The translations under genes and the position numbers were made by a program. The notes beneath the pieces are model-generated. The model was not told the origin of the DNA and did no database searches. It saw only the letters and a list, made by a program, of their open reading frames with translations. Source: Clostridium sp. 'deep sea' (GTDB taxonomy: Bacteria; Bacillota; UBA994; PWPR01). Taken from it: DNA of 64,000 nucleotides. How positions within the stretch are numbered: the stretch's first letter is position 1; every line of letters begins with the position of its first letter. Positions 54,367 to 57,778 of the stretch are shown piece after piece. Where the stretch lies: positions 2,728,001 through 2,792,000 of the forward strand of contig NZ_CP063353.1 of assembly GCF_014931565.1 (NCBI RefSeq), in the 5' to 3' direction.

Positions 54367-56301
54367 ATGGTAATAAAAAATATTGGAATTTATGCTCATG
54401 TAGATTCAGGCAAAACTACAATTACTGAAAATCTGTTGTATAGTGTGGGGGTTATTAAATCAATAGGTAGAGTAGACTCAGGAAATACCAAAACCGATTC
54501 TATGGAACTAGAGAAAAAAAGAGGTATTTCAATTCAAGCTGCTCCTGTATCTTTTAAAATTAAAGATACAAAAATCAATTTAATTGATACCCCCGGCCAT
54601 GCAGATTTTGTGGCAGAAGTTGAGCGCTCTATGAATGTATTAGATGGTGCTATATTAGTAATATCAGCTAAAGAGGCAGTGCAGTCTCATACCTGTTTAT
54701 TGTTTGAAGCCCTAAACAGAATGAGTATACCCACAATTATCTTTGTTAATAAAATAGATAGAATTGGGGTAGATATCTCTTATGTATTAAAGGATATTAA
54801 AGAGAACTTAAGCAAAAAGACTTTGCCAATTCAAACAGTAAAGAGGGTGGCAAATAAACGCTGTTTTGTAAGCGAATTATTTAATTATGACTGCTTAAAA
54901 ACAGTAGAGTTTCTAGCAGATTATAATGATGTAATGTTAAAAAACATTATTGAGGGAATTGAAACCAGTAAGGATTTAATAAGGTCTACTATAATAAAGC
55001 TTACAAAAAATAATACTATATACCCAATATTGTTTGGTAGCGCATTACATGGTATTGGTATTAGTGAGCTAAAAACCGCTATAGAGCTATTACTTCCTAA
55101 TAGCTTGCGTGCTACAGAGCAGGATTCCAGCGGAGTTGTATTTAAGATTAAACGCAATAAAAATAATGAACGTAAAATATATATTAGGCAGTATACAGGA
55201 AGTTTACAGGTTAGAGATTATGTTAATGGTGAAAAAATAACTAAAATAGAAAACTTAATAGCTGGCAAAGAAGTTGCCAAAGATAACATAAAGTCAGGTG
55301 ATATAGGTATTATTTATGGTGTTAATAGTTTTAGAGTTGGAGACAGCTTTGGTTCTTTAAGTAAAAAACTAAATGCTAAGTTAGCAACCCCAACTGTTAA
55401 GGTGGAGATAAAACCAATTAACACCCAAAAAAGACATAGCCTGTTAAAAGCTTTAGTGATTATTTCAGAAGAAGATCCCTTTTTACAGTACGAAATAAGT
55501 GAAATAGAACACTCTATTTTTTTAAGTATTTTTGGGGAGATTCAAATGGAAATTATTGAGTATAGGTTATGGCATGAGTTTTCCATTAAAGTTGAGTTTA
55601 GTGATGCTAAAACGATTTATAAAGAAGCGCCTATTGGTACAGGATATGCAGTAATGCGAAAATATAGCAAAGGAAATCCCTTTTATGCTACAGTTGGCAT
55701 AAAGGTAGAACCAGCAAAACTGGGTAGTGGCGTAGAGTTTGTATCACAAGTTCCTACAGGTCATTTGCCTCAAACTTTTCAAAATGGCATAGTAGATGGC
55801 ATAAATCATTATAAAACACAGGGTTTAAAAGGTTGGGAGCTTAATGACATAAAAATATGTTTAGTAGATGGAGATTACTGTAGCGTTAATAGTACTCCTG
55901 CCGATTTTAGAAATTTAACACCTATGGTTTTATTAGAAGCAGTAGCAAATGCCCAAACTAAACTTCAATGGCCTTTATTTAGCTTTAAGCTAAAGGTGCC
56001 TTTTTTTGCAATTGGCAAAGCTGTTGCTGATTTAGCCAGAATGAAAGCAGAGTTTAATAACCCTAAACTAATGGAAAATTATTATCTTATTGAGGGAACT
56101 ATACCAGCTGATTTATGTGGCAAATACGACCTAGAGGTGCGATCATACACAGCAGGAAAAGGTGTATTTATAACTAAATATTATCTTTATGCAGATGCAC
56201 CAACCGATATAAAACATACCAGAATTAAAACTAAAGTTGATCCACTTAATAAAACTAGGTATATTTTATCCAAACGTGGAGCACTAAATAACCATTATTA
56301 A
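54367..56301 (+). CDS. Tet(M)-like ribosomal protection GTPase (EF-G family)
   Basis: 644 aa, close to the 639 of Tet(M). G motifs: AHVDSGKTTITENLL, KKRGISIQ (switch I), DTPGHADF, NKIDRIG, and a G5-like GSALHG. The domain-IV loop that reaches the decoding site reads SVNSTPADFRNL, matching the STPADFR motif of tetracycline ribosomal protection proteins, and the C-terminal part also follows that family. It is therefore likely to dislodge tetracycline-like drugs from ribosomes, though overall similarity to known Tet proteins is only moderate and a housekeeping role is possible. ATG 54367 has GGAGG six bases upstream; ATG 54361 abuts that SD. Confidence 0.88.
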   Translation: MVIKNIGIYAHVDSGKTTITENLLYSVGVIKSIGRVDSGNTKTDSMELEKKRGISIQAAPVSFKIKDTKINLIDTPGHADFVAEVERSMNVLDGAILVISAKEAVQSHTCLLFEALNRMSIPTIIFVNKIDRIGVDISYVLKDIKENLSKKTLPIQTVKRVANKRCFVSELFNYDCLKTVEFLADYNDVMLKNIIEGIETSKDLIRSTIIKLTKNNTIYPILFGSALHGIGISELKTAIELLLPNSLRATEQDSSGVVFKIKRNKNNERKIYIRQYTGSLQVRDYVNGEKITKIENLIAGKEVAKDNIKSGDIGIIYGVNSFRVGDSFGSLSKKLNAKLATPTVKVEIKPINTQKRHSLLKALVIISEEDPFLQYEISEIEHSIFLSIFGEIQMEIIEYRLWHEFSIKVEFSDAKTIYKEAPIGTGYAVMRKYSKGNPFYATVGIKVEPAKLGSGVEFVSQVPTGHLPQTFQNGIVDGINHYKTQGLKGWELNDIKICLVDGDYCSVNSTPADFRNLTPMVLLEAVANAQTKLQWPLFSFKLKVPFFAIGKAVADLARMKAEFNNPKLMENYYLIEGTIPADLCGKYDLEVRSYTAGKGVFITKYYLYADAPTDIKHTRIKTKVDPLNKTRYILSKRGALNNHY

Positions 56302-56373
56302 AAATACAGTATATACAGAAATAAATATATATGTTACTCTTAATACATTAAAAGTTAAAAGGGGGTGTGAACA

Positions 56374-56460
56374 ATGTGCGTATTAAAAACTATTGTAATA
56401 ACTAACGTGCATTTTAACATACAATTAAATAAATGTTCACAGCCTTTTGTAATAAATTAA
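56374..56460 (+). CDS. Possible 28-residue peptide inside a long hairpin
   Basis: ATG 56374 follows GGGGGTG. The peptide begins MCVLKTIVITNVHFNIQLNK and contains two Cys. Arms AAAAGG+TGTGAACA (56357-56373) and TGTTCACA+CCTTTT (56434-56448) can pair and would hide the SD. It could be a leader peptide for the genes at 56984 onward or a free-standing small gene; no family is recognised. Confidence 0.3.
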   Translation: MCVLKTIVITNVHFNIQLNKCSQPFVIN

Positions 56461-56528
56461 GTCTAACTATTATTTACTTAATCTTTAATGAGGCTGTGTA
56501 AGTAGCCTATAACTAAAACTATAAAACG

Positions 56529-56568
56529 AATGGGTTTTGCTAATAGGCAAAACCCACTTTTGTTTTGT
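56529..56568 (+). terminator. Terminator-like hairpin after the 28-codon ORF
   Basis: TGGGTTTTGC (56531-56540) pairs perfectly with GCAAAACCCA (56547-56556), followed by CTTTTGTTTTGTT. It separates the small ORF from the structured stretch downstream. Confidence 0.75.
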
Positions 56569-56629
56569 TGGCTTTAGCCAGTTAAGGTAGTACATTCAGT
56601 AATCTATTTATCTTTTACACTTTTTAAAA

Positions 56630-56965
56630 AACATGAATGGACTATTGATGAAGGTGCTGAGGCACGGAATTGACGGTCAGCAATGATACCTTCTTTTCTC
56701 TTCGTGTGCTTTGTGGTTAAACAAAGAACGTAACAATTGAGAAAAGATATACTTGAGCGATAGCAGCTGACAATATAGTCTTAAGACAACTGCTAAGCTT
56801 TATAGGAAGAACCTGTTACTACTACATTTAGAATGCAGTTTAAACGGTTAAAGACAATGTGGCTTGAACATAGTGAAAGTTAGTGTCTTGAGGCGCTTGT
56901 CGGTATCAACCCCTTATAGGGGTAGTGTAAACCACTTTAACGGGTGGTCCTAATTAAAAAAAAGA
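56630..56965 (+). ncRNA. Candidate structured RNA, class not recognised
   Basis: About 335 bp without an ORF, with a higher G+C content than its surroundings and a chain of local pairings: GAAGGT/ACCTTC with inner GCTGA/TCAGC; TTTTCTC/GAGAAAA with inner CTTTGT/ACAAAG; TAGCAG/CTGCTA with GTCTTAAGAC inside; AAGACA/TGTCTT; ACCCC/GGGGT; ACCAC/GTGGT. This order of nested stems is what a large riboregulator or a mobile-element RNA would show. It ends about 20 bp before the SD and start of the GNAT gene. I do not recognise T-box, RNase P, tmRNA or SRP RNA signatures. Confidence 0.45.
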
Positions 56966-56983
56966 TAAAAAGGAATAATATAA

Positions 56984-57778
56984 ATGATAGAAATTAAATA
57001 TAACCAAAAAAACTTAAAAAATAATTATACTTCATTAAAAAGGGATTTTATCTTTGATTCAATATTTCAAGGCTTAACTCCAGCTAAGGTTTATGTTAAT
57101 AACAATAATGATAACTGTTTATCAATAGTTCAAGAGGGAGTGGCTTATTACTTTGGTGGTTTTAGTAAAAATGAATCTGAATACCAAGCGGTTATTGATT
57201 TTTATATTAATACCTTAGTAGAAAAAAGAACCCATAAATATCATATAGCTAAAATATTCTTTAGCTCTTTAAAATGGAAAAACTTATTGTTAAGTAAATT
57301 AAGTAGTTATAATATAAAATTGGTTAATTACAATTTATATCAACACAGTTTAGAAAATATACCAAAGCAACAGGCCTGTAACTATAATATTGTAGCTATA
57401 GATAAACAATTACTACAAAAAGAATTAAAACATAAAGCTGGTTTAGTAGCAGAACTTAACTACATGTGGGGATCAGTAGCAGGTTTTTTAAATAATGGCT
57501 TTGGCTCATGTACTGTAGACAATCAGACGATTACTGGCTGGTGTACTGCAGAGTATGTTAGTGATAAAAACTGTGGTATAGGTATAGAAACAGTAGAGCA
57601 ATATCAAAAACAAGGTATAGCCTATAATAATGCCTGTAATCTGTTAAAGATGTGTAAAGAAAAAAAACTCACTGCTCATTGGGATTGCTGGGATAGTAAC
57701 ATGGGCTCAGTGAAAACAGCTGAGAAATGTGGTTTTAACAAAATTTTAAGCTATAAGATAATATTTTTGAAGTACTAA
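56984..57778 (+). CDS. GNAT family acetyltransferase (two-part GNAT_acetyltran type)
   Basis: 264 aa. The C-terminal ~130 residues hold the GNAT core: ITGWCTAEYVSDKNCGIGIE, then EQYQKQGIAYNNACNLL (acetyl-CoA loop QKQGIA), then HWDCWDSNMGSVKTAEKCGF. The N-terminal half is a separate domain, as in the PF12746-type group. The substrate is unknown. The SD AAAAGG lies upstream of ATG 56984. It is first of three genes for transfer or phosphate enzymes downstream of the Tet-like gene; a hairpin at 57810 separates it from the next. Confidence 0.83.
   Translation: MIEIKYNQKNLKNNYTSLKRDFIFDSIFQGLTPAKVYVNNNNDNCLSIVQEGVAYYFGGFSKNESEYQAVIDFYINTLVEKRTHKYHIAKIFFSSLKWKNLLLSKLSSYNIKLVNYNLYQHSLENIPKQQACNYNIVAIDKQLLQKELKHKAGLVAELNYMWGSVAGFLNNGFGSCTVDNQTITGWCTAEYVSDKNCGIGIETVEQYQKQGIAYNNACNLLKMCKEKKLTAHWDCWDSNMGSVKTAEKCGFNKILSYKIIFLKY

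Follow-up and report, generated by a model that had tools for sequence, protein, structure and literature searches.

REPINs are short palindromic intergenic repeats that occur in many copies as hairpin-forming doublets, and their proposed mode of spread is the action in trans of one small enzyme, RAYT, whose gene lies beside the same repeats (Bertels and Rainey 2011, PMC3116915). Prokaryotic MITEs are non-coding, shorter than 600 bp, intergenic, present in many copies, and bounded by terminal inverted repeats, and a related element that carries a gene is presumed to mobilize them in trans (review PMC10969869).

Here we compare with these systems a stretch of 380 bases that precedes a GNAT gene in Clostridium sp. 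'deep sea', within the window (i.e., the whole 64,000-nucleotide stretch of DNA analyzed). In our judgment this stretch is very probably not a new RNA but a pair of old mobile DNA fragments, R1 and R2, one stacked on the other. R1 resembles REPINs in being a many-copy palindromic intergenic repeat that also occurs beside a nuclease-type gene, but its partner is a PD-(D/E)XK protein of the GxxExxY family (PF13366) rather than a Y1 HUH transposase, and its ends consist of 9-bp CRCRAAG units. R1 was rejected as a REPIN/RAYT member: the Y1 TnpA-like open reading frame (ORF) of this genome is linked to R2 and not to R1, whose neighbor is PF13366. R1 is like MITEs in its many copies, short length of <600 bp, non-coding nature, and intergenic position, and its complete copies, which lie in tandem arrays, carry inverted ends; it differs in that the related gene-bearing element has no known IS transposase. 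With the GxxExxY family (TIGR04256/PF13366, PDDEXK_3) R1 shares the family-typical flanking repeat and a core that lies 3' of a member gene, but the copy in the window has no gene.

Composition of the stretch upstream of the GNAT gene

What the preliminary description had read directly from the sequence holds. All of the stems that it named were found where it had placed them, between 56694 and 56950 (Table 1). The stretch is gene-free, as no ORF of at least 40 amino acids (aa) occurs in 56302-56983; its G+C content is above that of its surroundings (36.7% versus 32.6% for the whole window); and it lies between a terminator on its 5' side and the GNAT gene on its 3' side. Folded as RNA, 56560-56985 beat 100 of 100 dinucleotide shuffles on either strand, with z-scores of -2.6 on the plus strand and -4.4 on the minus strand. 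The fold is stronger on the minus strand, which is opposite to GNAT, and palindromic DNA would account for this no less well than a plus-strand RNA. When 56500-57000 was searched against its own genome, 18 matches were recovered, in pieces.

Table 1. Features upstream of the GNAT gene, in window coordinates
Feature	Position	Strand	Remark
Short leader ORF, 28 aa, ...NKCSQPFVIN	56374-56460	+	Upstream of GNAT, outside the repeats
Intrinsic terminator	56531-56556	+	Upstream of the insert
Possible left end of IS200-type remnant, GTTTTGTTGGCTTTAGCCAGTTAAGG	56560-56590	+	Directly behind the terminator
R1, dispersed repeat, long form	about 56577-56840	+	Shared largely with L009, L010, and L011
R1 core, ~90 nt	56629-56718	+	Common to ~40 copies
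Stem TTTTCTC/GAGAAAA	56694-56700 with 56739-56745		
GxxExxY-type right terminal repeat, CTTCGTGTGCTTTGTGGTT	56700-56718	+	Two 9-bp units
Stem CTTTGT/ACAAAG	56709-56714 with 56721-56726		
Stem TAGCAG/CTGCTA	from 56761 with 56790-56795		
R2, right end of IS200-type (Y1 TnpA) element	about 56861-56955	+	
Stems ACCCC/GGGGT and ACCAC/GTGGT	both within 56909-56950		

Assessment of the proposed structured RNA

The stretch had been proposed to be a riboregulator of the downstream genes, a remnant of a mobile element RNA (e.g., HEARO or omega-RNA), or a new RNA class. A functional structured RNA, acting on GNAT or in trans and repetitive by coincidence, would agree with the stability of the fold relative to shuffles, with the position immediately 5' of GNAT, and with the retention of the R1 core hairpin in 81% of cells. 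However, this hairpin is not conserved beyond expectation, being paired in 80.9% of cells versus 79.6% in shuffles, and its covariation score was equalled or exceeded by 64 of 500 shuffles; RNAalifold predicted 13 pairs from 20 R1 cores, with two-sided change in none of the 13. The TTTTCTC/GAGAAAA and CTTTGT/ACAAAG stems have lost 1 to 2 pairs, uncompensated, in the three copies closest to that of the window; the next copies lack their 3' arms altogether. Rfam 15, including HEARO, introns, and leaders, gave no match in the window at gathering thresholds; a relaxed search gave sub-threshold hits only, none of them credible, and a tRNA/tmRNA search found none. No sigma-70-like promoter was found on the plus strand of 56250-57050. 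In addition, copies occur at many unrelated intergenic places on both strands, and a species of the same genus lacks the insert before GNAT. With no covariation, no Rfam match, no promoter-like site on the plus strand, and no insert of this kind in the same-genus species, neither the proposal of a new RNA class nor that of a riboregulator is supported. We consider a functional RNA at this place very improbable.

The suggestion of a mobile-element remnant was right in kind, R2 being assigned to an IS200-type right end and R1 to a GxxExxY-linked dispersed repeat. The TnpB zinc ribbon (PF07282) had no match in this genome, whereas 6 of 14 control genomes were positive. An omega-RNA or HEARO is therefore unlikely, given that neither this domain nor any Rfam model was matched.

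The GNAT leader in a species of the same genus

In a species of the same genus (L175), a leader and a terminator-like stem precede GNAT, with ...NRPCSQPAKRHVVW in the matching leader position behind an identical AGGGGGTGTGAACAATG, and the leader ORF, GNAT, and the next gene (HAD/kinase) are all kept. The distance from the leader stop to the GNAT start is ~120 nt in that species versus 523 nt in the window, with base-by-base alignment possible in the leader only and boundaries accordingly approximate. At its GNAT site there is no R1- or R2-like sequence, and just one 28-nt chance hit was found elsewhere; on this comparison the insert is not a conserved regulator of GNAT. Very probably, two decayed mobile elements inserted between the leader and terminator and the GNAT start. 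The insert would add ~400 nt to the untranslated region before GNAT, and its hairpins would be a by-product of palindromes at the DNA level.

Upstream of GNAT in both species, the leader ORF has a ribosome-binding site and ends in ...CSQP... (~4264-4359 in L175), and it is followed by CACAGCC/GGCTGTG repeats and a terminator. This conserved leader is likely a ribosome-mediated attenuator, of which the terminator in the window would be a part.

R2 and IS200-type elements

R2 comprises two small hairpins, ACCCC/GGGGT and ACCAC/GTGGT, and has three other clear matches in the genome. In L020, an intact TnpA gene (a 150-aa ORF that was identified as Y1 TnpA-like by eye) is followed immediately by sequence that R2 matches, both hairpins included (72% over 100 columns, E = 3.6e-10). 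Because of this match, R2 is taken as the right end of an IS200-type element. Sequence behind the terminator (56560-56590) is similar to the left ends seen in L020, L007, and L011, which lie behind terminator T-runs, although the similarity is weak (E ~0.1); the left ends of L007 and L020 match each other at E = 9.6e-6. The R2 remnant lies behind a terminator, as other copies do, but it differs from IS200/IS605 elements in being an end only, without tnpA or tnpB, and its left end is uncertain. R1 and R2 share a strand in the window, whereas at 2.568 Mb each is on a different one, and therefore they are separate units.

The R1 repeat family

Pieces 82 to 91% identical to long R1 are present at 2567897, 1655415, and 1963756 of the same contig (G000:C1). 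Four long R1 copies have ~110 nt in common past the terminal repeat, and so the unit copied in their case was a larger one. The R1 core forms an imperfect hairpin, GAAGGTGCTGA...TCAGC...ACCTTC. A core model built from 20 copies had 42 matches in this genome and none in the 14 relatives searched alongside it, and the exact core pattern was not found in GTDB contigs or IMG/VR. The inspected copies (30 of 30) lie outside ORFs of at least 100 aa. The copies thus occupy many unrelated intergenic places, as the search for further copies suggested in the preliminary description brought out.

Some R1 copies are arrayed in tandem (49.5-51 kb, 114.5-118.6 kb, and 3345.7-3346.3 kb). Complete members, found in these arrays, have inverted ends of 9-bp units, AACCACNAAGNGCACAAAG ... 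CTTCGTGCACTTTGTGGT; of the 30 inspected copies, 14 have a left repeat, 77 to 89 bp before the core, and all 14 belong to tandem arrays. In the window copy, the right terminal repeat corresponds to a minus-strand occurrence of the motif CRCDAAGNNCRCDAAG (G000:C1:2784700), and no left terminal repeat is present within 260 bp. Because it has the right end only, the window copy is probably an immobile, dead derivative.

Several R1 cores (L041, L052, L054, and L055) are nested in a further MITE family, whose elements are longer and have GGGGCTGTCGCACTAA-like ends. An insert of 50 to 60 nt like TTTTTAAGGTAATGATTTTACTCCATTTTATTTCGTAAAACAT occupies the identical position in several cores (L034 (L011), L043, and L044), and parts of it recur at ~1740 of L011 and in L007. 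The array at 114-119 kb is situated in a flagellar gene cluster and includes an IS110-like transposase gene, apparently interrupted (L021, 3382-4732).

GxxExxY genes in this genome

The genome has two TIGR04256 genes, one intact and one broken. An R1 core (114477-114566; 61 bits, E = 2.5e-16) lies directly 3' of the intact GxxExxY gene (TIGR04256/PF13366; 114042-114392), which has no clear 5' repeat. The broken gene contains a stop and has inverted ends on both sides, AACCGCAAAG...CGCTAAG and CTTTGCGCTCTTTGCGGTT. The GxxExxY partner matches PF13366 at E = 8.8e-41, and the invariant residues of the family (E18, D58, E68, K70, Q82, and Y86) include the catalytic D, ExK, and Q residues of PD-(D/E)XK nucleases. 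Its predicted structure, at a pLDDT of 92.5, is a confident one, and the predicted fold appears closest to Cas4-like SSO0001 and lambda-type exonucleases among PDB entries, with modest scores (E ~2e-3, TM 0.45 to 0.56).

In light of these associations, R1 very probably derives from a GxxExxY element that has decayed and lost its gene, and before GNAT it is nested with the remnant of an IS200-type element. R1 might instead be a purely IS-derived MITE, of IS200 type or of the GGGGCTGTCGCACTAA-ended family, in which the CTTYGTG motif is a chance passenger and has no functional tie to GxxExxY. The cores contained in GGGGCTGTCGCACTAA-like-ended elements and the IS200-type ends that accompany long R1 copies agree with such an origin. 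On the other hand, one GxxExxY gene of this genome is followed immediately by a core, the cores in tandem arrays have their own paired ends of 9-bp units, and in many phyla the motif is found beside GxxExxY genes far more often than in controls (see below). We regard an exclusively IS-derived origin as improbable and retain derivation from a GxxExxY element.

Repeats flanking GxxExxY genes across phyla

A search with four close sequences as the query was used to collect the best 80 loci by similarity from GTDB genomes of many phyla, several of these loci being related to each other. The strict motif CRCDAAGNNCRCDAAG occurred within 200 bp of the gene 27 times upstream on the plus strand and 31 times downstream on the minus strand in the 80 loci, and almost never at 2 to 5 kb from GxxExxY genes. 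In a motif-free test, the 250 bp on either side of each gene were compared in inverted orientation and the best match was scored, with 13 as the threshold. Inverted repeats scoring at least 13 were found in 58 of 78 GxxExxY loci versus 0 of 50 flanks taken 3 kb away, and other ORFs of the same loci gave 8 of 390. The mean end-to-end match was 18.5 within one locus versus 10.0 between loci. Direct repeats between the gene flanks are also common (29 of 78 loci), owing to the tandem or nested copies present at several of them, and the inverted signal was therefore judged against the far-flank, other-ORF, and between-locus controls. The usual flanking repeat is AACCRCRAAG-NN-CRCRAAG, with 9-bp CRCRAAG units (L085-L164).

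A phage search for GxxExxY gave no match, and a plasmid search gave 8 records. In the literature searched, with subscription papers and preprints outside its scope, the R1/GxxExxY repeat strings and PDDEXK_3 were not found, and GxxExxY itself had few mentions; inverted CRCRAAG repeats around GxxExxY genes would thus seem to be undescribed.

Signs of mobility and possible roles of the nuclease

GxxExxY genes occur in up to 6 to 7 copies per genome, at different sites. Downstream of hemW in Flavobacterium, some species have a repeat-gene-repeat arrangement, and others have a gene-less palindrome of roughly 60 bp made of the same units. The motif CRCDAAGNNCRCDAAG has 75 sites in this genome and 93 in a relative with a 1.4-Mb genome (G013), compared with 0 to 6 in 19 other relatives. 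In G013 a GxxExxY gene lies between ATCCACGAAGGACACGAAG and CTTCGTGGAT, and the CRCDAAGNNCRCDAAG sites are often plus/minus pairs 33 to 100 bp apart, so that this GxxExxY genome has a large palindromic repeat family of its own. Three further GxxExxY genomes (G009, G012, and G014) have no amplified motif.

These observations raise the possibility, for which we see about as much reason to believe as to doubt, that GxxExxY proteins are the enzymes of widespread, undescribed mobile elements of ~0.5 kb, each made up of a single PD-(D/E)XK nuclease gene bounded by inverted repeats of 9-bp CRCRAAG units, and that they also spread gene-less palindromes, of which R1 would be one family. A more doubtful explanation, though one deserving attention, is that GxxExxY is a nuclease useful to the host (e.g., in defense or repair) rather than an enzyme of mobility, with R1 copies as by-products and the repeats kept as binding sites, for example for its own regulation. 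Conservation of the catalytic residues is consistent with usefulness to the host, as is the finding that some copies occupy a single conserved site throughout many species of Flavobacterium, which suggests long retention. Yet the copy number per genome at different sites, the presence or absence at one site, and the many gene-less palindromes in gene-bearing genomes all look like mobile DNA.

If GxxExxY is a mobility enzyme, the nuclease may recognize the repeated 9-bp units and cut the palindromic ends or the target, and in this way it could mobilize the repeats. R1 would then be a MITE-like, gene-less derivative of the GxxExxY element whose copies spread by repair or transposition, comparable to the presumed spread of REPINs by RAYT transposases. 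Beyond the removal of a false candidate RNA class, the association gives a common family named only by its motif a testable role as a nuclease tied to inverted repeats, and GxxExxY elements would explain where the ACCACNAAG / CTTNGTGG repeats between genes, which otherwise lack an explanation, come from. Should the nuclease indeed move the repeats, the system would resemble that of REPINs but rely on an enzyme of another fold.

Further Flavobacterium species (L215, L216, L219, and L226) carry at the hemW site an unrelated repeat, AACGCTGATAAAA...CCGTAAAATCCGCGTT, which suggests that the site is a hot spot or that there is a second type of repeat.
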